64,000 bases of DNA from Zea mays (lineage: Eukaryota > Streptophyta > Magnoliopsida > Poales > Poaceae). The notes below the pieces were generated by a model. It did not search any database, was not told the DNA's origin, and was given only the letters and a program-made list of their open reading frames with translations. Shown here piece by piece: positions 40,370-58,022 of the stretch. The stretch lies in NCBI RefSeq assembly GCF_902167145.1, contig NC_050098.1, positions 14,404,501 through 14,468,500 on the forward strand. Reading direction: 5' to 3'. The stretch's first letter is position 1. Each line of letters starts with the position of its first letter. Made by a program: the position numbers and the translations under genes.

Positions 40370-43108
40370 CTGCAAACTCCCACAGGGTAATGCTGAAAAA
40401 CTCAAGGTTCTTCAATTTTTTTAGATCAAAGGCTCAGCACAGCTTTATTAGAAAGTGTACGAAACAAGGTTCTTCAATTTGAGAACATGCAACTTCTGAT
40501 TGGATCAAAATATGAACATTCAGCAATGGAAGATGGGTCACAAATCGAGTAGTGCTGAAAATAGCATTTATAGTAAGATCAACAGGAAACCTGCAGCCTA
40601 ACAAAAGATTCTACATGAAATTGAACAAGAAATCAATGTATCTAACAGTGGAGTGTTGTGCATTACTGAACAAAAACTCAGTGTTTGCTAATACTGATTA
40701 ACATGTTTGGCACTGTAATAATAGAAAGAATAGAGTATGGTGCATGATTGATCAAGTCTACGTTTGTGCATCTTCTAGAGCACATGCTTATGCCCAAACA
40801 TATGGGTCATGATAAACCTTCATATACTTGAATTCATAAACATGGCACATGAGTTGTCCCAGTTCGATGAAAACTAGGCTTCTCATGGTGTTATGTGTTG
40901 AAGTGTATAAGTGGATTGGCTACCTTCTTTCATTAGCTTAAACTTTTGGGTTGAACTGGTTAGTGCGTTCACTCTAACATGGTATCAAAGCCAGAGATCT
41001 CGAGTTCGAATCTTGGTAGAGGCTTTATGTGTGCCCCCGCCCATTTATTTCCACGTTTGCATCTTTCTCTCTGGTGGGAGAAGGTTGTCAATCCACTTAT
41101 ACACTTCAACATTATGCACAAATTTTACTTATCTTGGAGTACAACACCAGGTGATGTCATGAGAATGCACTAGTGTGGTGGCCGGTGGTTGGGCACCCAG
41201 TTGTGGTGCTGTAGGATCAGGGTTTGAACCCTGGGTTTCACAAAAGGCCCCTCACGTTGCAACTGCTTTCAGAGATATACATGGTTGCATCCTGGGAAGT
41301 CAGCTGGCCTTCTTGACCCTGTGGTTAAGGTTTCTCCTTAATACAATGCCTTGGGGGAGATCTTTCCTCCAAGAAGAGTTTTTTTAGGTGAGCTGATGAC
41401 ATTAATTGAATTTACTCACGTGATATCACCTAGTAGTTTCATCTTTAAATTAACTTCATTTCTCATAGCATAAAATGATGTAGGGAGCTAAAAATCATAT
41501 TTACCTTCAACAATTTCCCACTGGTAGCTAAATACTTCAGTTTTGCAGACAATAAGTGATCAAAATCACTAGGTGGCCAATATTGCTCCTACATAAAACC
41601 AAGGTAAGAGCCTGATTGTGCACATAGAAAATAAGACGACCATGACCTAGTTCACCAATAACTTTTATTAGCAAATAAGAAAGAACATGATGATTTCAAA
41701 ATGAAATCAGAACTCTGCGAGAAGACAGTGCAATAGCTAACGCTTTGGACAACAAGAGGAAATCTAATCTAATTAACTAGACATGCTTTTTTATTGGATT
41801 CTACTATTTGATATCTATGATATATAACTTTTATACAGTCAGATCAGGTGTGCTGAAGTTCTGTTTCTGGCATGACAAGTGTTCACTGATTATTTAGATG
41901 TTTATGATATATAAACCGATGCAAGTTTTTTCCCTGTAAATGTAGAGAGCCTGCTTTGAACCCGTGATCTGGTGACTCAGCGAGACAGCTCTCATCACTA
42001 CACCACGCCTACCCTTCCGATTTGGGCAAAATCATGGGTTCATGACGGTTGGGTAGCCACGTAGTTGACTTATCATACACTTTTGTCAAAAATAAGAACA
42101 ATACATTTACTATTAACAAGATATCATGAGTATAAATTTTTTTGGCTGACTAATTACAAACAGAAAAGGCAAATAATGTTGACGTTCAAAAGTAAAGGAA
42201 AATGGGAACGTAGACAGACCATAAATAAAGCATATTGTAAGTCTATAAGTTCTAGAAAGAAACAGAAACAAGAGAAGAATGTACACCTCTATGTAATTAG
42301 CAATAGTAGTTCTGTGGGACCCTGTAGGCTCATTCAAAGAAACAAAAACAAGAGAAGAATGCACACCTCTATGTAATTAGCAATAGTAGTTCTGTGGGAC
42401 CCTGTAGGCTCATTCAAGTTCTTTATAGCCTCCATTATAATATTGTCTAGCCTGCATTAAAGCAATAGTAAGTGAAGACTTCAGTCTATCTAGTTTTCTA
42501 TTGAGATAATGAAGAGAGAGAGGGAGATAAGCTAAACGGCACAATTATGTATTATTACACATGCATATGTAATCACCTTGAGTGAGATTTCTTTGAATTT
42601 GAAGTATTCCATCCTTCAACAGACATTGATACTATGGGCTTTACATCAACAATCTCATCATCAACCTCAGAAGTGATTGTGCTCATTGCCAACAATTGGT
42701 CATTATTCTTAGGAGCAGCTCGGGTTCTCCTCGTGGAAGTTCTCCCCCTGTCACGAGTACTCGATGAAGTGACAATTACATTCATGTTGCGCCATTTGTC
42801 CTAAGTAGTGATTAATAAAAAAGGAACATATGAGCATTAAGATTGAAGATGAATCTAGAAATTTGAAAACCAAAAGACACATGATTTCAAGGAATACCCA
42901 AATATGGCAGTCCCTTCACTAAATCAATCTTACGTAAAAACGAGTGAATAGATTTAACCTTTAGGTCAACATTCGAGCGGTAGCGCAATGTGGAGCTAAG
43001 TTCTGGATCATTCAATATCATGCGCCAATTTCCAACTCCATGTCTGGCTACTCCAGCTCTAAGAGCAGCCTCTTCCTCAGAAGTCCACCTCTGTTTTGGA
43101 GCCCCCAT
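40052..43108 (-). CDS. smh: Single-myb-histone / telomere-repeat-binding protein
   Basis: Five coding exons on the minus strand: 43108-42959, 42800-42577, 42451-42367, 41588-41505, 40369-40052. All introns are GT-AG and the joined frame is 861 bp, 286 codons plus stop, with no lesion, close to the usual Smh length. The N-terminal myb/SANT domain ([20 protein letters not shown]) ends in the telomere-DNA contact motif VDLKDKWRN, built across intron 1. The central linker-histone H1/H5 globular domain ([19 protein letters not shown], then [29 protein letters not shown]) spans exons 3-5. The C-terminus is an Ala/Glu-rich coiled-coil ending in [12 protein letters not shown]. Known family role: nuclear proteins binding telomeric repeats and related promoter elements. 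TE insertions flank it on both sides. Confidence 0.9.
40896..41111. mobile_element. 216-bp TRIM/MITE-like element
   Basis: Starts TGTTGAAGTG and ends CACTTCAACA: the first 23 bp (40896-40918) and last 23 bp (41089-41111) are perfect inverted repeats. Direct 5-bp target duplication TTATG at 40891-40895 and 41112-41116. Inside, TGGTATCAAAGCC (about 40980) looks like a Met-tRNA PBS, followed by a tRNA B-box-like GAGTTCGAATCT. TG...CA ends and a 5-bp duplication point to LTR-retrotransposon integrase, as for TRIM/SMART elements, but I find no direct LTR pair. Lies in smh intron 4. Confidence 0.65.
41175..41386 (+). mobile_element. SINE-like element
   Basis: tRNA-like head (GTGGCCGGTGGTTGGG, then B-box-like GGTTTGAACCC) and a tail CTTGGGGGAGATCTTTCC followed by a short T run. 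This tail style is what I recall of maize SINEs that share a 3' end with L1-type LINEs. Target duplication not identified. In smh intron 4. Confidence 0.5.
41505..41588 (-). CDS. smh: smh coding exon 4
   Basis: Acceptor TTTTATGTAG before GAGCAATATT; ends TTGAAG before GTAAAT. 28 codons of the H1/H5 domain. Confidence 0.88.
41905..42035 (-). mobile_element. tRNA-derived SINE, second type
   Basis: On the minus strand: GGTGTAGTGATGAGAGCTG (A-box-like), then GATCACGGGTTCAAAGC (B-box-like), ending in CTTGCATCGGTTTATA. Typical of a common grass SINE. In smh intron 3. Ends are approximate. Confidence 0.5.
42256..42415. repeat. 80-bp tandem duplication over smh exon 3 donor
   Basis: 42256-42335 and 42336-42415 are the same 80 bp with two mismatches seen. 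The copy at the right includes the last 49 bp of exon 3 and the start of intron 3; the left copy puts the same exon end and a second GT donor into intron 3. Confidence 0.85.
42367..42451 (-). CDS. smh: smh coding exon 3 (H1/H5 domain start)
   Basis: Acceptor TTTAATGCAG; ends CATAGAG before GTGTGC. Its last 49 bp are inside an 80-bp tandem duplication that also places a second, orphan copy of this exon end in intron 3. Confidence 0.88.
42577..42800 (-). CDS. smh: smh coding exon 2
   Basis: Acceptor CTACTTAG before GACAAATGG; ends ACTCAAG before GTGATT. Encodes [14 protein letters not shown], a basic stretch and an acidic linker ([14 protein letters not shown]). Confidence 0.88.
42959..43108 (-). 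CDS. smh: smh coding exon 1 (myb domain)
   Basis: Starts at the ATG at 43108 and ends CTAAAG before GTTAAA. Holds the three-helix myb up to NVDLK, with Trp at residues 8 and 28; the third core Trp (DKWRN) is the start of exon 2. Confidence 0.9.
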
Positions 43109-44783: not shown

Positions 44784-44788
44784 CACGT
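44784..44788. other. Target site duplication, left
   Basis: CACGT, repeated exactly at 56300-56304 on the other side of the complete element. Confidence 0.9.
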
Positions 44789-45266
44789 TGTTGGGGTGAA
44801 GGCGAAGCCGCTACCCTTCGCTCGATGCCTTCGCCGATCTCGCCGCACCAACGGAGGTAAAGCGACCGGCAGTTTCCACCCTTCGTCCAACACGCCGCAA
44901 GACGAAGGCCTACGACGAGGTCGCTCCGTCTCGCGGCCTCGTCCAACACGAAGGCCCACGCGGAATTCGGCTCATTGTAACAGGCCCCGGTCGGCTGAGT
45001 GTATTACGGGCCCGATTTGTAAAGACTTTTCTGTAATGACAGTCTGTAACCCTGCTTTATTGGAATATTTCGGGGATGACCTAGGCGCCTGAGGGCACAT
45101 GCGTCCTTAATCCAAGACGCTGGGTACTCAGGCACCTATAAATACCCCTGCACAGTGCCCTTGAGAGACTGGATTAACAGAGCAATTGCCTTCCTGAGCT
45201 AAAACCTTTTTGCATTACTTTCACTCCCCCGTTGGATCATCTTGCTCGGGGGAGCAAGTTCCAACA
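44789..45266 (+). repeat. 5' LTR of the complete Tat element
   Basis: 478 bp, TATA box TATAAATA at 45137-45144 (+). Ends AGTTCCAACA. The expected PBS does not simply follow: see the tRNA-Lys insert. Confidence 0.92.
45137..45144 (+). promoter_or_regulatory. TATA box of the complete element
   Basis: TATAAATA, 348 bp into the LTR; also present at 56169-56176 in the 3' LTR. Confidence 0.65.
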
Positions 45267-45271
45267 TTTGA

Positions 45272-45345
45272 CGCCCACCGTAGAGCCCGAACCCACGACC
45301 ACAAGGTTAAGAGCCTTGTGCTCTACCGACTGAGCTAGACGGGGC
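45272..45345 (-). tRNA. tRNA-Lys(CTT)-like sequence, probably copied from the primer tRNA
   Basis: On the minus strand a near-complete tRNA-Lys: D-arm GCTCAGTCGGTAGAGC, anticodon arm CAAGG-CTCTTAA-CCTTG (anticodon CUU), T-arm GTGGG-TTCGGGC-TCTAC, acceptor end GGTGGGC, discriminator G and then TCA in place of CCA. The 5' end has one C too many (GCCCCGTCT). The T-loop has G where A58 is nearly invariant. It lies immediately after the 5' LTR with AAA/TTT between, exactly where a tRNA-Lys primer would have been attached. More likely a reverse-transcribed fossil than a working gene, though scanners may call it a tRNA. Confidence 0.75.
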
Positions 45346-45479
45346 GACCTCGTCGTAGGCCTTCGTCTTGCAGCGTGTTGGACGAAGGGTGGAAACTGCC
45401 GGTCGCTTTGCCTCCGTTGGTGCGGCGAGATCGACGAAGGCATCGAGCGAAGGGTAGCGGCTTCGCCTTCGCCCCAACA
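45337..45479 (-). repeat. Inverted copy of the LTR's first ~145 bp
   Basis: The reverse complement matches 44789-44932 and 55821-55964: it ends (plus strand) GCCCCAACA at 45479, the LTR start reversed. At its other end it overlaps the tRNA-Lys 5' end in CCCGTCT, shared by both sequences. I counted about 5 differences to each LTR and about 8 between the two LTRs over the same stretch. Confidence 0.85.
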
Positions 45480-45565
45480 TTTGCCCTCTGAGGGACCAGT
45501 TCGACTATCGCTAGATGGTGGAGATGCTGCCCTCGTGGCGAGTTCCAACATTTGGCGCCCACCGT
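45480..45565. other. Inverted PPT-flank, LTR tail and real PBS
   Basis: 45480-45534 is the reverse complement of the sequence just before the 3' LTR (55740-55820), minus an internal stretch of about 24 bp. Then GAGTTCCAACA (45540-45550) repeats the LTR end, TT, and TGGCGCCCACCGT (45553-45565) is the PBS for tRNA-Lys. Gag starts soon after. Confidence 0.8.
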
Positions 45566-45590
45566 TCGTGCTACGAAAAAACCACCCGCG

Positions 45591-47475
45591 ATGGCACCCA
45601 AGAGAGCTAGCTCGAAGGCAGCCCCATCCGTTGACGAAGCAGCGAAGGCAGCGCTGTTGGCCGAGAAAAAGGGCAAGGCCCTTGTCGACACCACCCACCA
45701 AGAAGCCTGCGAAGACGACGCACTCAGCAAGAGGCAGCGCAATGAACAACCCACACCCGAAGGCAGCCTCCGCACCTGCAGCTCCAGAGGACAGCCGCAA
45801 CCCCCCAGGCTTCGCTCTACCGGAGGGCGCGGACGCCACTGAGGATGGCGAAGCCATCGGCGTTTCAGCAGAAGAACAGCTACAGCTGCGGGCCTTGCGC
45901 ATCAAGAACCGCAACCTCCAGAAGGAGAAGGAGATCCTCGAGGCCAAGCGCCAACGTGTCTCTGCGCAAGCCAAGGTGCGCCAGATGATACGTGACGAGG
46001 AGCGGAAGGCTCAGGAGCTTGAGCAAGAGATTGCGCTCATGCAGAGCGAAGGCCAACTTGGTCTGCAACAAGGCCCACCCCTCCAACAGCGCGTGCCATT
46101 CAAAGACCTGTTCATTCCTCAGCGCGGACCCGTCATCCCGCACGCCACAACATTCCAAGGTGTCAACTACCTTGACGAGCGAAGTCCCCTGGCACCGCAC
46201 CTGCAAGTGTCACCATGGACCGCCAACTTCAGGGCAGGGACCTACCCCAAGTACAACGGCAGCACTGACCCAGCACAGTATATCATGAGCTACCAAGTCG
46301 TCGTTGCATCATCCGGAGGGGACGACGCCACGATGGCCAAATCATTCATCATCGCTCTCGAAGGCCCGGCTCTCACTTGGTACACCAGGTTGCCCCCGTT
46401 GTCCATCGACTCCTAGAGAAGTCTGCGGGACAAATTTTTGCTCAACTTCCAAGGGTACCGCCCAGACACCGACGCCTTGGCTGAACTGTCACTCTACAAG
46501 CAGCTGGAAAGAGAAACTCTGCGAGAGTATTACCGCAAGTTTCTGACTCTCAAGTCACAACTGCCCTCGGTTGATGACCAAATAGCCATTCACTACGCTA
46601 TCAGTGACCTTCGGGCTGGCGTCCTTTACAGCCACTGCATCAGAGATCCACCCAAGAACCTCCAGGAGTTGTATCAGCTGTTCAAAAAATATGCCAGATC
46701 CGAAGAGCTCCACCAGCGCAAAGTCGAGTCCCAGAGGAAACCCAAAGACCCTCCGCAGTCCACCCGTACGTGGATGAGACCTTCGCAGGCAGACTCCGGT
46801 CGAGATGGCCGCAGTCAGCAGCAGGTACACAACATCGCCAACCAGCACCCCGCTGGTGAGGCCCCTCGCCGCCAAGAGTATCCCCCCCAGGGCCACGACA
46901 ACGGAACTCGTGGTCGGGGCCGGGGATGGGCGCAGCAGCCGCGCAGATTTTACTGTTTGTTCCACGGCGAAGACTGCGCGCACCCTACAAGGGACTGCCT
47001 AGAAACGAAGGCCACCAGAGACAGGATGTCTCGGGCGCAACCAGCCGACAACCCTAGAGTTGTCGCGCACACATATCAACAACTCCCTCAATCATACAAC
47101 CACGGCCCCGCTCAGCATCCACCTAACCACGCATACCCACACCACCAGGAGGTACAAATCGTACCTCCCCCGCTTCCACCTCCACACCCGCAACAGCAAA
47201 ACATCCACCACCCCCAAGCCCCAAAACAAGAAGACTTCGCCGATCAGCCGTATCGCGGAGTCATTCACATGATCACTGGGGGGTCCAGCGTCGACTTCGA
47301 CACAAAGCGACAGAAGAGGGACCACTACCGCAGCATCAACCATGTCGCCGTCACTGGTCCAGTCGTGCAGACAAAGTGGTCCCATGTGCCATTGACCTTC
47401 GACGCCCGAGACGTCGACCTGCGCAGCGCACCCCACATCGACGCCATGGTTATCAACTGCAGCGTGGCAGGCTGA
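45591..47475 (+). pseudogene. gag: Gag of the complete Tat element
   Basis: ATG at 45591 (MAPKRASSKAAPSVDEAAKA), 26 bp past the PBS. A frameshift near 45765 moves to the frame that stays in use to 49830. A coiled-coil (EKEILEAKRQRVSAQAKVRQ), then capsid: NFRAGTYPKYNGSTDPAQYI, LEGPALTWYTRLPP, a TAG at 46414-46416 (Trp expected), then LRDKFLLNFQGYRPDTDALA. A Gln/Pro/His-rich linker and a Cys/His cluster CLFHGEDCAHPTRDC follow. A TGA at 47473 (Trp expected) ends it just before the protease. An earlier in-frame ATG at 45481 lies in the inverted LTR insert and is not a real start. Confidence 0.82.
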
Positions 47476-49950
47476 GACCTGCACAAAGTCTTAGTTGACA
47501 ACGGCAGCCAGGCAGATATCATTTTCCTCCACACCTTTGTCCGCATGGGCATCAGCCACAGCTTGATCAAACCTTCGGACAACCCACTGTATGGCTTCGG
47601 CGGCAAGGACACCTTTCCTGTCGGCAAAATAGAGCTACCCCTCTCCTTCGGTGTAGCACCCAATGCACGAAGCGAGCAAGTCACTTTCGACATCGTCGAC
47701 ATGATGTACCCGTACAACGCCATAATGGGTCGGGGCTCCATCAACAAGTTTGAGGCAGCCATTCACGGACTTTACCTGTGCATGAAGATCCCAGGTCCGC
47801 AAGGCGCGATCACAGTCTACGGCAACCTGCAGGCCGCGCGCAACATAGAAAGAGACTTCGTTCCTAGGCAAAGGAACGTACACTGCCTCACGGCCCAACG
47901 CGAGGCCCCCGAGTCTGCCAGCCCAACCGCCAAAGAGCATGAAAAGGCACAGCTGCAGAGCAACGATGGGACCAAGACTGTCCCCCTCGACCAGGCAACG
48001 CCCAAGCAAACGGTCATCATCAGCGAAGACCTCACTTCGCATGACGAGGAGAGACTCCTCTCCTGTCTGTCCAAAAATAAAGACGTCTTCGCCTGGTCCG
48101 CCCTCGACCTGGTCGGAGTCGATCGCTCTATCATCGAGCACAGCTTGGGAATTGACCCTTTGGTGAGGCCGAAGAAGCAGCGGCTGCGCAAGATGTCTGA
48201 TGAGAAGACAGAAGCCGCCAAGGCTGAGGTACACCGCCTGCTTGAGGCCAACTTTATCGAGCCAGTCGCCTACCCTACGTGGCTCGCAAATGTAGTAATG
48301 GTGCAGAAGAAGAGCGACAAGTGGCGGATGTGCATTGATTTCACCAGCCTCAACAAGGCCTGCCCCAAGGATAATTTCCCGCTGCCTCGGATCGACAAGA
48401 TCGTCGATAGTGCGACCGGGTGCGAAGTCATGTCACTCCTTGATTGCTTTTCTAGCTACCACCAAATATATATGAAGGAGGAAGACAAGGCCAGCACTAG
48501 TTTCATAACACCCTTCGGCACATATTGCTTCATCAGAATGCCGGAGGGACTTAAGAACGCTGGGTCCACATTCTCTCGACTCACCAAAACGGTGCTCGAG
48601 AGCCAAGTCAGCAGAAACATATTTACGTATGTGGACGACATCGTCGTCGCCAGCAGAAGCAAGGAAGACCATCTGGCTGACCTCGCAGAAACGTTCGCGA
48701 ACATGAGGGACGCACGACTTCGCCTAAACCCCGAAAAGTGTGTCTTCGGCGTTCGTTAGGGGAAAATATTGGGCTACCTGGTGTCGCACCGCGGGATCGA
48801 AGCCAACCCGACCAAAATCTAGGCCATCATCAACATGACGCCCCCGCAGTCAGCTAGAGACGTCCAACGACTGACAGGCAGATTGGCCGCCCTCAACAGA
48901 TTCATCTCCAAGTCCGCAGAGCGAAGCCTACCTTTCCTCAAAACACTCCGCGGCGCAAAAGACTTCGCATGGGGACTAGAGCAAGCGGCAGCCTTCGCTT
49001 CACTAAAGCAGCACCTGTCAGAGTTAGTGATTCTTACAAGCCCCAACCCCTCGCTACCCCTGTTGCTCTACATCGCAGCTTCGCCGCACGCGGTCAGCGC
49101 AGCACTGGTTCAGGAGCAGGACAGAGAGGGCATGATCAGGCAATGTCCAGTTTATTACGTCTCCGAAGTACTCACGACATCAAAATGCAACATGACGGAA
49201 CTGGAAAAAATCGCCTACGCAGTTGTTATGGCTTCGCGCAAATTGCGCCATTATTTTGAAGCATTCAAGGTACGGGTCACCTCAGACAGGGGACTTGGCG
49301 AATTGTTTAGAAATCTGGAGGCATCTGTCCGGATCGCCAAATGGGCAGTCGAGCTTTCCGGCTACCATATCACCTTCGAACCCAGGACAACCATCAAGTC
49401 ACAAGTCCTGGCAGACTTCATCGTCGACTGGACCGGGCCAATAACGCAGCCGGACACGTCCGTAGAAAAGGTATGGACCATCCATTGCGACGGCGCATGG
49501 TGCCATGCGGGGGCAGGCGCAGCTTCAGTCATTACTTCACCCACAGGGGTCAAGCACAGATATACAGCACGCCTCAGCTTTGCTTTGGAGTCTGATAGAT
49601 GCACCAACAATATAGCAGAATACGAAGCCGTCATCCTCGACCTTCGCAAGCTAAGGGCACTTGGTGTCACTACCTGTATCATCAGAACAGACTCCAAGGT
49701 AGTCGCCGGCCAAGTCAAGAAAGATTACGCAGCGAAGGACCCCGCACTTATGCAGTATCTCGCGGCTATCCATAGTCTCGAGAGACAATTCAAAGGGTTC
49801 ACCTTGCAGCACATGGACGAGCCAAGAATGAGGAGGCCGACGCATTGGCAAGGCAGCCGCCAGAGGCGAGGCCCTGCCCTCCGACGTATTATACCATGTC
49901 ATCGGCACGCTAGCCATCCGCAGCCCAGAGGGCCTCCAAATAACCAATGA
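47476..49950 (+). pseudogene. pol: Tat-lineage protease, RT and dual RNase H
   Basis: Same frame as gag. Protease HKVLVDNGSQADIIF and YNAIMGRGSINKFEA. RT: WRMCIDFTSLNKACPK, the catalytic IFTYVDDIVVASRSK. Two stops where Gln is expected (near 48757 and 48820). Then the first RNase H-like part (LLLYIAASPHAVSAALV ... RKLRHYFEAFKV) and the second (WTIHCDGAWCHAGAGAA ... NNIAEYEAVILDLRKL). A 1-bp loss near 49825 shifts the frame, so the published end at 49950 is an artefact. Confidence 0.85.
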
Positions 49951-51217
49951 CAGCGAGGGTCACCGCATAGTCAACCTCATTATGACTGAAGACTGGCGGG
50001 CACCAATAACCCTGTTCCTGTAGGGGTACTATCATCCAACCGATATCAACATGGCCAAGCGCCTCAAACACCAAAGTCGGGACTTCGCACTCATCGAAGG
50101 CCAGCTTTACAAGAAGGGGGTCAGCCAACCCATGCTTAAATGTGTCACCGAGACCGAAGGCATCCAAATCCTGCGCGAAGTCCACAGCGGGACTTGCGGC
50201 TCTCACGCAGGGCCTAGGGCCCTAGCTGCAATGGTGATCCGTCAAGGCTTCTACTGGCCCGCCATGATCTGCGCCGCAAATCGGGTCACAAGGTCATGCG
50301 AAGCCTGCCAGAAGTTTTCTCCACACTTGAGAAGCCCTTCGCAATTCACAAAGCTAATCGCCCACACGTGGCCCCTTCAGCGCTGGGACCTGGACATTGT
50401 CGGGCCACTACCCACGACCCAAGGGAACCTCAACTTCACCTTCGTCGCCGTCGAGTATTTTACCAAGTGGATCGAGGCGAGGGCAGTATCCACGATAACA
50501 TCGAAGACTGCCCAGAATTCTTCTGGCAAAACATTGTTTGCCGATTCGGAGTCCCGTCCGAGCTCACAGTTGACAATGGCAAGCAATTTGACAGCCAAGA
50601 CTTCAGGGATTTCTGCTTCTCCATTGGCGCCAAGCTTGCCTTCGCCTCAGTGTACCACCCACAATCCAATGGCATCGTGGAGCGCGCCAACGACAAGATT
50701 TTCACGGCGATCAAGAAAATGCTCATCGACGACAAGAAGGGCAAATGGGCTGACTTGCTACCTGAAGCAGTTTGGGCACTGAACACGACCGAGTGTCGGG
50801 CGACCGGATTCACTCCCTTTCGCCTTCTATATGGATCGGAGGCCATGACCCCGCAGGAAATCAAACATGGATCCTCACGGACAAGCGCTTCAGCAGTACC
50901 CGACGTCGACGAGCCAACTTCCAAAGACCTCATTAACGGAGACCGTGTCTTCGCCCTGTAGGCCCTCACCAAATATCAAGCCCAAACGAAGGCCTGGCGC
51001 GACCACGCAGTCGTCCCAAGAGAATTCAACGAAGGGGACCTCGTACTTGTCCGCACAACCCGGACAGAGTCACGGGGTAAGCTAGAACCAAAGTGGGAAG
51101 GATCATTTATCGTCAAGACAAAGTCATCTCCCAGCGTGTACAGATTAACAACACAATCTGGCGAAGACCTGGAACACTCCTGGAATATAGATAATCTTCG
51201 CAAATTTTTTGTTTGAA
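49951..51217 (+). pseudogene. pol: Tat-lineage integrase
   Basis: Begins in the frame opened by the 49825 shift. Zinc region HSGTCGSHAGPRAL and CEACQKF; core D (RWDLDIVGPLP); a second 1-bp loss near 50505; then D (ELTVDNGKQFDS) and E (NGIVERANDKI). A stop near 50960 (Gln expected). C-terminal end GDLVLVRTTRTES ... HSWNIDNLRKFFV ending at 51217. Confidence 0.85.
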
Positions 51218-51439
51218 TCCTCAGGGCCATCACGCCCTTGTAATTCACCAAACATTATTATTCCGGCCCGCACTCTTTTCCTCCCAGGGGGGTGAGGTTT
51301 TTAATGAGGCGGAGCCATGTAAATATACAAGCAAAAATCCCCCAAAAAACTAAGCAAATGTCGAAAAAGACCGCATCGACGGTCTTCGGCATTCGACCAC
51401 ACCGAAGTCACCGCGAGGGGCAGCGCTGACTACCCTCGC

Positions 51440-51790
51440 GTGCGACACTCCGCGCAAAAGTCGCCTAAGGGTGCAGCCGGATTCTCCGTGCAAAAGTCAC
51501 CTATGGGTGCAGCCGGAATAGCACAATAAGTACGCAAATTTGAAGTCTTCTCCAAAAGACTCCCCGTGCAAAAGTCGCCTAAGGGTGCAGCCGGACTCTC
51601 CGTGCAAAAGTCGCCTACGGGTGCAGCCGGACTAGCACAACAAGTGCGCAAAATCAAAGTCTTCTCCAATAGACTCCCCGTGCAAAAGTCGCCTACGGGT
51701 GCAGCCGGACTAGCATAACAAGCACGCAAAATCGAAGTATTTTCCAAAAGGCTCCCCGCGCACAAGTCGCCTACGGGCACGACCGGATCA
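51440..51790. repeat. Tandem array, about 79-bp unit, after pol
   Basis: Units of GTGCAAAAGTCGCCTACGGG + TGCAGCCGGA, some followed by an AGCACAACAAGTGCGC-type spacer, at about 51450, 51485, 51563, 51598, 51676 and 51755. Noncoding, between the integrase and the antisense gene. Confidence 0.8.
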
Positions 51791-51846
51791 ACGAAGGCAC
51801 GCAGCTTCATATAAATTACGGTTACATACAACGAGGGCATCACACT

Positions 51847-54800
51847 TTACATTGGCTCAACCTTCGGGACGATACCCATCTCCCTGTAGTTGAACAGCAT
51901 TATCCTCAGCTCCTCACCCTCAAAAATACTTCGCAACTCCCCCTCACCTACACTCGCCCCAGCCGGCGAAGACAACAATTCCCGTTTGCTAGCCCCGTCT
52001 ACACGAAGACGACCACCCTCCACCTCACTCACCCTCCGCTTCGCCACCGCCCTTCGCCGCCTACGCCCAACACTCACACCAGGCAGAACTTCAGCACCTA
52101 TCACACGTGGAGAAGCTTCCGCCGCAGCCACATCCAGTGCCGCAAAATAATCCGAGTCCTCATCCGAAGACTCTTCCGTCCACACAACTGAGCCCCCAGA
52201 ATCATCAGACTCAAAAAACTTAGACACAGAATCATCCGAAACAGCTTCAGCAACCACGGTCGAAGCCGCCACAAAATTAGCATTGTCAGTAGCGGTTGCG
52301 TGCGCAGGCCCAAAACCGTGAACCTGCGCAGCAACCGAGGTTCAGTAACACGTAGACAAAATTTACACACCCCAGCACCTATTTAACTACTTAGCCACCT
52401 GCGAAGGCCCGACCGTGGCTGTGGGGTCTTCAACTGTCGGCTCGCCGCCACCTTCAGGGCACCTTCGACCGTCGGCGCAGGGGCCGACATAGGGTCTTCG
52501 CCGGCCATAGCAGGCATGGGCACGGCCGAGGGGCCTTCACCGGCATCCGAGGGCTGCACCGGATTGACCTCCGCAGGTTCGGGCGGCGCGCCGACCAGGC
52601 CTCCAAGGTCCTCGACGTCCTCAGCACGCTCCATCTGCAGCAACAGCACATTCACTCAGCAAAAACTACACATACCCACACGCAACCAACCACACAAAAA
52701 TAATAACCTTCACCTGCTCTCTCGCCCGGTCGGATCGCTCCCTGACAGCCTCCCGACCATGCGCCCCCCACATCCTATCAAAAAGTGCCCCCGCTGACTG
52801 CTTCACAACAGGGTCTTCGGCCTTGAAGATCTCGTGTTCAAAGCTCTCGTCTGATTGGTCGAAGACCTCATAGTGTCTGCAGCCCTCGCAGAACAGCGCA
52901 TTCATGGCCCCCTCGCAGGTGACGAGGGAGGCAAAGGACATGAAACCCTCGACGATGGTCGGGAGCACCAGCAACTCCTCATGCAACCATTCGAGGAAGC
53001 GAAGGCCCGCCTCCCGGTCGGGCACCTCGAAGTCAGCAGTCCGCGCACCCAGCTCGTTGTATGAGTCCACGAACTGTGCGAGTGTCCGCTCAACCTCCGA
53101 GCACATAGAGGCCTCGGCCTTGTCCACGCGGCCGCATAGGGCATTGAACCTCGCCTCCCACTCCTCCGCGCGTTGGCTGGCGAGACTTCCCTCCGCCCGC
53201 GCCACTTTGGCCTCCGCCTGCGCAGCCTGCGCCTCAACGATGGCCTAGTTTGCCTCCTTCCTTTCCTCCACCAGTTGGCGCCGGAGGTCCGTCTTCTCGG
53301 CCTCCAGAGTGGCCACTTTCTCCGCCAGCCTGTGGTTTTTGCTCTCCGCAGCCGACTTTTCCCGGACGACATCCGCGTGCTACGCCCGAAGCCTCTCGAC
53401 TTCAGTAGCCACGTCCGCAGTCAGGACACCAGACGCAACACGGTCGGCGAAGTCGGCCGCCTAACAAAAACACATGAGACCCAACTCTTCATGGAAACAA
53501 CAAACACCGAAGTCCAGCTCAACTTACCTGACCTAGCTGCTGCGACAGCCGCTGCGATGCCTCCCTCAGCCGCTGGGACATGGTACCCGCCACGTCCTTA
53601 GCGGTAGCGGCTGTCAGAATCTCGCCGCTTGCGCAGAAGGCGGCCCACGGGTCCTGCACGGTTCCCCTCGCCCTCACCACCGCCGATGGAGAAGTGGTCG
53701 CCACCGAAGGTGGGACAACAACCATTTGTCCCTCGCCCGACCCTGCAATATACCACCGGTCAGAAGACCTCCCAAAAAAACTTACCAACAAAATATTCCT
53801 CCATGCTGATGTTCGTGCCGAAGTCGGCAACACGTTTCCCCGGCGAGGGCAGCTCCCGTCCTTTCGCAGCCTCGACCGGGGCAGGCTTGGTCCCGCCAGC
53901 GGCGGCTGTCTTCGCGATCGCCGACAACTTGCCGGGTCCGGGCGCGGCCGGTTTTGGAGCCGGCATCGGCTGGCTGCTGCCGGGGGCTGTAGCCTTCGCG
54001 CTCCCCCGCGCTCTCTTCGCCTCACGCCTAGGATCTGCGATCCTGATAGCCGCCCGGCGCTTCTGCGCAGCGTCTTGACGGTCCTTGTTCATCGCTGCCG
54101 ACACAACATCAACAATATTTCGTCCGTAAGGGAAAATCCTCAAGCCACGAGCTATACAAGATGTAGACATGTCTTCGCCCTCCGTCCAGGGGATCGAAAG
54201 ATTCTTTGGCCATCGACCCCCGGTAACCTCCAGCATTCGCGCCGAAGACTCCCGGAGCTCGGGCGAAGACATCCTTCCCCCAGGGGCCGCACATGTCCCC
54301 ATCAACTCCACAGCAAAATTATCATACACCCCCATTCCCCCCACCATAGTACCTAATTTCCTCCTCTTAGCGGCCGGGGCAGCGTCCTGCGAAGGCCCTT
54401 CCTTGGTCCCGCCCATCAGTTTCTTCCCGCGGCGGTCGGCGGCGTCTTCCCCGGGATAACCACCGTACGGCAAGCGGTTCAGTTCGAAGACCCGATTCAA
54501 CCTGTCGTTGGACCCACGGATTTCCCAACTCTGCAGGCCCTCTGTCCTCGGCACGTAGTGCCCCACGATCCTCGCTGCACCGTTTTCCTTTTCACGCACG
54601 AATGCGGTGGGATCTCGACCACGCAAATCCAGCGCGAAGGCAGGACTTCGCACCAACTGCCCGCCCTGGGAGGGCATCTCGCGAGGGCATACTTCGCCTA
54701 GCGCCCAGCCATGCGCCAAGGGCCATACCCCATACCCAACAAATTCCTCAACCAAATCGCGCCCGCTACTCATGCGGGTAGCGCACCGAAGGGCTCCTTC

Positions 54801-55485
54801 GTCTGCATCATCCTCCTCTACCTCAAACTGTGGGTACGCTACATAATAATGGGAGCACATGACGGCCACGGGGAGCCCTGGGTGGTCTTCGACTATGCCT
54901 TCGGAAACGTAAAACTAGAATTCCCACCAGTTGCCCCACTTATTGCGGGCGCAGGGAACCAACTCCACGTCTTCCATCGAAGTCTTGCCGGTCTTAGGCG
55001 TAAATGTGCATGATCCAAATTATGCAATCTCATGTCCAATTTTCATGTTTTGCCAATGCAGACAATAATGTTTTGCGAAGACTTCCACAGAGGGCTCACT
55101 GCCATATGAAGTCGTCGCCCACATACTTCGTCAGGGCCACCACGACATTCGGTGTCAGCTGATGGACCTGGACCTCGAATCTCCGCAGGACCTCCGCCAC
55201 GAATCGATGCGCAGGCAGACGAAGGCCAGCGGCGAGAAAAGCCTCAAAAACAACCAACTCGCCTTCTGGCTCGGGGACCTCCTCCGCCCCCGGGACACGC
55301 CCCACTCCGCTGCCAAAATATCCAAGTTGTTGCATATCTTGCACGCGGACCGAGGACATCCGTGACACGCCAAACTCCACTGTATCACCAGGATGCAACT
55401 CCTCCGCCGCCACATTGCTCAGTGTGTCCTCCGACGATGCGCCGACCGGCGGTGTATCGGCAACAGAAGAGGAAGAGGACGGCAT
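51847..55485 (-). pseudogene. Antisense multi-exon gene, Transposase_28-like
   Basis: On the strand opposite to gag-pol, starting close to the 3' LTR. Proposed exons: 55485-55100, about 54992-53786, 53742-53528, 53460-52714, 52634-52399, 52323-51847, all bounded by GT and AG; exons 2 to 5 keep one frame when joined, while the first and last joins do not with the sites I can see. Exon 1 has the signature FEAFLAAGLRLPAHRFVAEV + LRRFEVQVHQLTP of the family Pfam names 'putative gypsy type transposon' (Transposase_28). Exon 2 continues with WEFYVSE-type sequence and a basic nuclear-type tail (AKRARGSAKATAPG); exon 4 is a coiled-coil; exon 6 is acidic. Three TAG stops (one in exon 2, two in exon 4) make this copy dead. 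Confidence 0.7.
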
Positions 55486-55810
55486 GGCTACGTACCGTCG
55501 GTGGCGGCAGGCGGTCTGCTTCACGCGGGCCAGATCTCCGATGAGCAGGAGCAAGGAGGGCAGGCAAGCGATCAAACAGTTTCAAGAGGAGGCTAGGGTT
55601 TTGCGGCGCGCAGAAAGAGTGCCTGACCCGCGCCGCCTCGCCCCCTTTTTATACACAGGACGCGACGCTTCGGGAAAACCGCAGTCCAACAGTGCCGCGT
55701 CCGTCAACGGTCACATCAAAAACCCCCGCGGAACCACTTCGAGCGAGGGCAGCGTCTCCACCATCTAGCGACGTCTTCGGCACTAGATGACTTAGTCGAA
55801 CTGGTCCCTC

Positions 55811-55820
55811 GGAGGGCAAA
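55811..55820 (+). other. Polypurine tract of the complete element
   Basis: GGAGGGCAAA directly before the 3' LTR start TGTTGGGG. Confidence 0.65.
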
Positions 55821-56299
55821 TGTTGGGGCGAAGGCGAAGCCTTTACCCTTCGCTCGATGCCTTCGTCGATCTCGCCGCACCAACGGAGGCAAAGTGACCG
55901 GCAGTTTCCACCCTTCGTCCAACACGCCGCAAGACGAAGGCCTACGATGAGGTCGCCCCGTCTCGCGGACTCGTCCAACACGAAGGCCCACGCGGAATTC
56001 GGCCCATTGTAACAGGCCCCGGTCGGCTGAGTGTATTACGGGCCTGATTTGTAAAGGCTTTTCTGTAATGACAGTCTGTAACCCTGCTTTATGGGAATAT
56101 TCCGGGGATGACCTAGGCGCCTGAGGGCACATGCGTCCTTAATCCAAGACGCTGGGTACTCAGGCACCTATAAATACCCCCACAGAGTGTCCTTGAGAGG
56201 ATGGATTAACAGAGCAATTGCCTTCCTGAGCTAAAACCTTGTTTGCATTACTTTCACTCCCCCGTTGGATCATCTTGCTCGGGAGAGCAAGTTCCAACA
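55821..56299 (+). repeat. 3' LTR of the complete Tat element
   Basis: 479 bp, pair of 44789-45266, about 5 percent divergent by eye; many differences are C/T or G/A. Confidence 0.92.
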
Positions 56300-56304
56300 C
56301 ACGT
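56300..56304. other. Target site duplication, right
   Basis: CACGT, matching 44784-44788. Confidence 0.9.
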
Positions 56305-56798: not shown

Positions 56799-58022
56799 TG
56801 AAAGGGAAATAGGCTTACACCTTTTCCTAATTGATTTTGGTGGTTGAATTGCCCAACACAAATAATTGGACTAACTAGTTTGCTCTAGATTATGAGTTCT
56901 ACAAGTGCCAAAGGTTCACAACAAACCAATAAAAAGACCGAGAAAGGATTCAAATATTGAGAGCTAAAGTCAGCCGAAGTGTGACCTGGTCTAGCGCACC
57001 GGACTGTCCGGTGTGCCACCGGACAGTGTCCGGTGCACCAGGGACTTCAACTCCGAACTGCTCACCTTCGGGAATTCTGGAGGCCGGTCCGCTATAATTC
57101 ACCGGACTGTCCGGTGGAGCACCGGATAGTGTCCGGTGGCGCACCGGACTGTCCGGTGTGCCAGCAGAGCAACGACTACTTCGCGCCAACGGTCGTCTGC
57201 AAAAGGCATTAAATGCGCTACAGTGTGCGCTAGGGTCAGAGCAGAGCCAGACGGCACACCGGACAGTCTACAGGACCTGTCCGGTGCACCACCGGACTGT
57301 CCGGTGGCCCAGAAGACAGAAGCTCCAACGGTCGAACCCTAACGGTCGGGTGACGTGGCTGGCGCACCGGACAGTGTCCGGTGGCGCACTGGACTATCCG
57401 GTGCGCCATGCGACAGACAGCCTCCCAACGGCCACTTTTGGTGGTTGGGGCTATAAATACCCCAACCACCCCACATTCATTGCATCCAAGTTTTCCAACT
57501 TCACACACCTTACAAGAGCTATAGCATTCAATACAAGACACACCAAAGAGATCAAATCCTCTCCCAAGTCCTTAGTTCATTCCAAATCAAATAGTGACTT
57601 GTGAGAGAGTGACTTGTGTTCATTTGAGCTCTTGCGCTTGGATTGCTTCTTTTTCTCATTCTTTCTTGTGATCAACTCAATTGTAACCGAGGCAAGAGAC
57701 ACCAATTGTGTGGTGGTCCTTGCGGGGACTTTGTGTCCCGTTTGATTGAGAAGAGAAGCTCACTCGGTCTAAGTGACCGTTTGAGAGAGGGAAAGGGTTG
57801 AAAAGACCCGGTCTTTGTGACCACCTCAACGGGGAGTAGGTTTGCAAGAACCGAACCTCGGTAAAACAAATCATCGTGTCTCACTCTTTATTTGCCCGCG
57901 ATTTGTTTTTCACCCTCTCTCTCGGACTCATTCATATTTCTAACGCTAACCCGGCTTGTAGTTGTGCTTAAGTTTATAAATTTTAGATTCGCCCTATTTA
58001 ACCCCCCTCTAGGCGACTTTCA
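56799..58022 (+). repeat. 5' LTR of Sirevirus C
   Basis: 1224 bp, TGAAAG...CTTTCA, with palindromic CACCGGACTGTCCGGTG motifs at about 57000-57410 and a TATA box CTATAAATAC at 57451-57460. Followed by PBS TTGGTATCAGAGCC (58023-58036). Confidence 0.92.

Follow-up and report, generated by a model that had tools for sequence, protein, structure and literature searches.

The stop of reverse transcriptase at m1A58 is the textbook reason why a primer tRNA is not inherited together with the retroelement that it primes. Exceptions to this stop have been described for HIV-1, whose primer is tRNA-Lys,3: when the m1A58 methyltransferase is mutated, plus-strand synthesis continues beyond A58, such extension being reported from TRMT6/61A mutant cells, full copying of the primer is obtained with in vitro transcribed tRNA, and minor stops are described at the modified A37 (PMC13191261). 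Reverse-transcribed tRNA has also been described in other positions near proviral DNA. A cloned circle of Moloney MLV DNA carried a tRNA-Gly between its LTRs (Colicelli and Goff 1986, via PMC12220202), hairpin-induced tRNA-mediated recombination in HIV-1 placed pieces of tRNA-Asp and tRNA-Glu in the nef region rather than a primer at the PBS (Konstantinova 2006, via PMC12220202), and tRNA-Gly DNA has been reported beside HIV proviruses (PMC12220202). The Helenus TRIM elements hold a tRNA-like part inside the LTR; it characterises the family and is described as having no complementarity to the PBS (PMC10886601).

The sequences described here share a feature with each of these systems: with HIV-1, the copying of the primer past A58 by the plus strand; with the Moloney circle, reverse-transcribed tRNA beside LTR ends; with hairpin-induced recombination, the insertion of long tRNA pieces; with the HIV proviruses, the joining of retrotranscribed tRNA to the integrated element; and with Helenus, tRNA sequence within an LTR element. 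Unlike in the HIV-1 cases, the plant copies past A58 were resolved by template switching, became integrated and persist in the genome, and unlike in Helenus the tRNA sits behind the LTR, where it extends the PBS. In the literature covered (titles and abstract openings, with most subscription journals outside the scope), we found no report of primer-tRNA read-through copies in a host genome.

The sequence analysed is a stretch of 64,000 nucleotides of the Zea mays genome, hereafter the window, and all coordinates below are positions in it. Positions 44789-56299 are occupied by an LTR retrotransposon with LTR ends TGTTGG...CCAACA (TG...CA), a tRNA-Lys PBS and, as an earlier note on this sequence had claimed, a perfect target site duplication (TSD), with CACGT on both sides. 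Its parts are as follows.

44784-44788, no strand: left TSD, CACGT
44789-45266, plus strand: 5' LTR
45269-45344, minus strand (on which it reads as tRNA): antisense copy of the primer tRNA-Lys(CTT) with encoded CCA-type end
45269-45281: PBS part of the tRNA copy
45337-45343, no strand: AGACGGG microhomology between tRNA copy and inverted U3, read from the alignment
45337-45479, minus strand: inverted U3 (LTR positions 143 to 1), 143 nt
45480-45535, minus strand: inverted PPT and pre-PPT
45538-45550, plus strand: second U5 end, 13 nt
45553-45565, plus strand: second PBS, canonical, tRNA-Lys
45566-55820, plus strand: internal region
55821-56299, plus strand: 3' LTR
56300-56304, no strand: right TSD, CACGT

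The two LTRs differ at 21 of 478 sites (K2P 0.046), which at a substitution rate of 1.3e-8 per site and year corresponds to an age of about 1.75 million years. In the internal region, RVT_1, RT_RNaseH_2/RT_RNaseH, RVT_3 and Integrase_H2C2 (reverse transcriptase, two RNase H-like domains and the integrase zinc-binding domain) score above their Pfam cut-offs, rve (28.1 vs 32.6 bits) and gag (21 vs 24.1) fall below theirs, and the matches, weak gag and integrase core included, run in Ty3/gypsy order. The Tat lineage is marked by two RNase H domains, the second of which (aRH) lies between RH and integrase (PMC6317226); with RVT_3 taken as the putative aRH, the domain order would place the element in Ty3/gypsy Tat (Ogre/Retand type). 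The element also contains 114-nt direct repeats at 51444-51749; outside it, the window has an 80-nt tandem duplication at 42256-42415 and, just to the right of the element at 56970-57408, short palindromic units repeated around CACCGGACTGTCCGGTG.

Between the 5' LTR and the canonical PBS lies an extra block that reads, in order, TT linker, antisense tRNA-Lys, inverted U3, inverted PPT/pre-PPT, U5 end and PBS. ARAGORN calls a tRNA-Lys(CTT) at 45272-45344 on the minus strand, in agreement with the antisense tRNA that the earlier note had seen behind the 5' LTR; of the "full" tRNA described there, no more than the first few nucleotides are missing. The copy is certain to about position 9, and to position 2 if the shared AGACGGG letters are assigned to the tRNA; in the alignment to position 2, where the last 7 nt are common to U3, it passes A58. 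Its CCA-type end reads TCA, and its changes are G26A, A58G and C-to-T at 61, 63 and 74. This CCA-type end links the tRNA to the end of U5, and the strand is the one expected of the minus-strand primer. The inverted start of the same LTR, put at about 145 bp in the earlier reading, measures 143 nt, and the second LTR end and canonical PBS are present as described there. The inverted sequence that normally precedes the 3' LTR is likewise in place, with a detail to be added: it is without 21 nt that are present in the element's own 3' end and in the four relatives compared. Two nucleotides at the second junction (45536-45537) have no assigned source. Chance falls far short of explaining a near-complete tRNA with CCA that adjoins two pieces of one and the same element. 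Across the 143 sites, 5 differences separate the inverted piece from each of the LTRs and 8 separate the LTRs from each other, the values that had been estimated approximately; if the block had come down from an older element, the piece would be the more distant, and so these counts, small as they are, fit formation of the piece in the replication round that gave this insertion.

The sequence of events put forward in the earlier note, in which the primer is read through, the strand switches template by microhomology (within AGACGGG) and goes back to U5/PBS, and integration is normal, fits everything measured. We regard such a course, begun in plus-strand strong-stop synthesis and with 7 nt of microhomology at the switch, as very probably the origin of the block. 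The reverse transcriptase would have copied U3-R-U5 and, with the tRNA-Lys primer not yet detached from the minus strand, gone on into it, passing A58 and reaching within 1-8 nt of the tRNA 5' end. AGACGGG, at the 3' end of the strand just made, would then have paired with CCCGTCT in U3 on a template of plus sense. Most likely this was genomic RNA, in its 3' part, and U3, PPT and pre-PPT would have been copied from it backwards. A second switch, onto the minus strand at its 3' end (a few nucleotides inside U5 and ahead of the PBS), would have allowed the element to be finished and to integrate normally. The anatomy, the TSD, the divergence counts, the single junction and the parallel sites described below are observed; in which order the switches came, that RNA was the template and how the primer was modified, we infer. 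To another element, on C2, the inverted stretch shows a match of 97% over 174 nt, no worse than that to the window element's own LTR (96% over 146 nt), so that a co-packaged RNA could have been the template. Against this mechanism stand this possible second template, the two nucleotides without assigned source and the 21-nt gap in the pre-PPT, which demands a third slip or a later deletion.

Primer copying past A58 is recurrent in this one genome, at more than 100 sites. Besides nuclear tRNA-Lys genes, a search with the tRNA block, of whose 739 candidates 40 were scored, brought up something unexpected: further copies of the tRNA whose CCA adjoins an LTR end. A pattern comprising tRNA-Lys positions 45-76 plus CCA-A, with up to three mismatches allowed, then matched 132 places, and its reversed control none; at least one of the 132, namely one of the 100 places listed, is a known tRNA gene, and the window copy itself, with four changes in this stretch, falls outside the limit. 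The flanks were read for 30 of the 132 places and 12 more were read as 91-nt pieces; the 30 flanked loci, together with 8 read-through loci from the tRNA-block search, make up a set of 38 copies. An LTR-type end, AACAT or AACATT, stands before the PBS in all 30 flanked loci, and throughout the 38 copies such an end (AAAATT in L042) is followed by the PBS and then by the tRNA copy, whose end point varies between positions 45 and 1. End points fall at positions 27-28 in 4 of the 30 and at 36-39 in 8 of the 30, numbers too few for a claim. Where the LTR was compared with that of the window, in seven of the 38 copies, it was found in all seven. For one LTR type there are 430 exact LTR-end/PBS sites; among the first 100 of these, no fewer than 8 recur in the listed pattern matches. 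The 29-nt junction of tRNA and inverted U3 has one match in the genome at up to three mismatches, and the insert is not one carried by most family members. The earlier reading is to be corrected in that the window event is a member of this recurrent class.

Copies of another primer were also encountered. Six candidate copies of initiator tRNA-Met with encoded CCA (L088-L093) all extend past A58, and one of them (L089) reaches position 1; three (L088, L090 and L093) have adjoining sequence in common. Plant elements that were surveyed use tRNA-Met most often as primer, at 39% vs 9% for Lys (PMC6317226); our 6 initiator-Met and 132 Lys places are raw counts, not normalised for the number of elements in the genome.

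Beyond the tRNA copy, 19 of the 38 copies match the window element downstream. The other 19 have no such match and may belong to other families, so that their landing sites are known only from siblings, if at all. The mechanism would be the same for the class as a whole, but 18 of the 19 mapped copies resume in plus sense, with minus-strand DNA as the template, either behind the PBS or at other places of the element, a pattern that fits internal deletion or LTR duplication. L049 lands just behind the PBS and L047 in U3, scattered internal landings are found for example in L060, L062, L070, L074 and L085, and in L064, L072 and L086, among others, the match begins some tens of nucleotides past the junction. 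L077 runs through LTR, 41-nt tRNA copy, 73 nt of pre-PPT, a second full LTR, PBS and internal region, its doubled 5' LTR being the product of one wrong landing. The remaining mapped copy, L042, is the one inverted landing and runs backwards through at least 1.5 kb of internal sequence. Where a reference exists, 0 to 5 letters are shared at the junction, for example GCTA in L049 and CGGGC in L051, but no letter in L074 or L077; the window junction shares 7. In a related element, L004 (also L010 1-833; C7:71764016 onward; 79%), a whole inverted LTR and PPT, with 52 nt of inverted pre-PPT, adjoin CAACA-PBS, which is followed by internal sequence, and L101 lands on U5 end and PBS. With L042 landing inverted, L101 landing on the U5 end and PBS, and L004 joining inverted PPT to PBS, every step proposed for the window has a parallel at other loci. 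At L078, positions 430-1622 hold an inverted LTR and inverted 3' internal end, ahead of a partial LTR, a tRNA copy and a U5 piece; several switches took place within this one element.

These loci also bear on other ways in which the block might have arisen. The read-through strand might have folded back, its AGACGGG end pairing with the CCCGTCT of its own U3, and copied its own U3, the PPT RNA primer and uncut upstream RNA before moving to the PBS. Such a course would find its microhomology partner in the same strand and would yield U3, PPT and pre-PPT as one continuous copy; it also requires at least about 50 nt of uncut RNA upstream of U3, and the backward copying in L042 is better accounted for by genomic RNA or another plus-sense template, so that we hold folding of the strand possible but doubtful. 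That the element captured a nuclear tRNA gene can be put aside as vanishingly improbable: the tRNA is near-complete and called by ARAGORN, yet it has an encoded CCA-type end directly adjoined by an LTR end, and its 5' side is U3 rather than gene flank. The tRNA genes shown have neither an encoded CCA nor an LTR end, the sequence on both sides of the window copy is LTR sequence unlike the flanks of the tRNA genes compared, and among the loci of the tRNA-block search none with matching flanks was seen. An extended PBS handed down within families is a very unlikely source of the class, given the varied end points and landings among the 30 loci and the single occurrence of the window junction. It could nevertheless explain a few pairs: L047 and L048 agree in end point and landing and probably go back to one event, and L049 and L102 land at the same place. 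A SINE derived from tRNA has its own TSD directly around the tRNA unit and occurs in many copies with the same body; we rejected this candidate, as the TSD in the window flanks the whole LTR element and the junction was found once.

The A58G change of the window copy, which the earlier note had taken as the expected mark of read-through, is present in this copy, but does not serve as a general mark: of the 99 listed copies 96 retain A58 and 3 are changed there, the most among seven A/T sites (binomial p 0.023) but a weak excess, and A58 is changed in 0 of the 23 copies that match a longer pattern. We rejected A58G as the main mark on these counts. Among the initiator-Met copies A58 is changed in 2 of 6, as judged against the initiator tRNA sequence. 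With A58 kept in nearly all listed Lys copies, most Lys templates were probably unmethylated at A58, as is the case in HIV when the methyltransferase is mutated, and the A58G of the window may represent bypass of a methylated A58 or a later mutation.

Position 26 behaves differently. All 31 tRNA-Lys genes compared have G26 and A58. The longer pattern gave 32 matches, of which one is a gene and six mismatch the tRNA at positions 22-25 and were taken as break points (flanks read for two); from the remaining 25 we set aside two with a shared cluster of changes that includes A26, leaving the 23 copies. These two, L069 and L080, have different LTR-type ends and the same cluster, AAATA for GAGCG at tRNA positions 22-26. 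A26 is found in 20 of the 23 read-through copies and G26 in three, vs A26 in 0 of 31 genes (Fisher p 5e-12), in a search whose pattern contained A26, so that a G26 copy was permitted one fewer change elsewhere. The window copy is one further A26, and in a smaller copy set A26 is present in 11 of the 12 copies that pass position 26. In a search with a 31-nt core, the exact A26 matches were all read-through copies (11 of 11), vs 1 of 32 otherwise exact G26 matches known to be such a copy (p 2e-9). A26 fits misreading of m2,2G26. In yeast, tRNA-Lys(CTT) is affected when Trm1, which dimethylates G26, is lost (PMC9943672), in fission yeast misincorporation at G26 depends on Trm1 (PMC4697793), and in Arabidopsis tRNAs m1A58 and m2,2G26 marks are described as widespread; the one Arabidopsis G26 profile described there, from an organellar transcript, shows mostly deletions and G to C (PMC11658184). 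We infer that G26 of the tRNA-Lys of this plant is dimethylated and read as A by this reverse transcriptase.

A26 might instead bear no relation to modification, and derive from a lost or decayed A26 tRNA-Lys gene or from methyl-CpG deamination of C25G26 after insertion. C25G26 is indeed a CpG, and four A26 tRNA-Lys copies without CCA exist (L106-L109). Decay of this CpG should, however, hit C25 as often as G26, and in the same 23 copies C25 is changed in 0, G26 in 20 and the next most changed CpG site, C56, in 6 (Fisher p 7e-5 vs C56), which argues against it. In the 99 listed copies, which have at most two mismatches and are biased to few changes, CpG positions are changed in only 1 to 9 (Fisher p 3e-13). 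Position 26 is the sole difference from the genes in L060, and L051, L042 and L049 differ at one more site each, whereas L106-L109 are all changed elsewhere too. Both sources of A26 unrelated to modification are on these grounds unlikely, and misreading of dimethylated G26 is the explanation that we retain. A similar 3' flank, like TTTAATATTTTTTGTCTTTGTCACTGATTTG, is common to the tRNA-Lys copies L106-L113 and to gene loci such as L018-L020, L029 and L030; several copies with this flank are changed in the tRNA, and they may therefore represent a multiplied gene or pseudogene family.

In this one plant genome the m1A58 stop failed repeatedly and its products integrated, and tRNA gene counts can include read-through copies. 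The frequency of strand-transfer errors, the pause sites of reverse transcriptase on native tRNA, the modification of primer tRNAs and the origin of deleted elements are testable from genome sequence alone. Joints like those of tRNA, CCA and LTR have been proposed for the origin of SINEs. Taking the observations jointly, we think it fairly likely that the genome is an archive of primer-tRNA chemistry, in which m2,2G26 would be recorded as A and A58 kept, the primers hence often having been dimethylated at G26 and unmethylated at A58; that read-through would occur in a sizeable share of new insertions in some tRNA-Lys-primed families; and that it would drive the birth of internally deleted and LTR-duplicated elements, leaving integrated tRNA-CCA-LTR joints behind.
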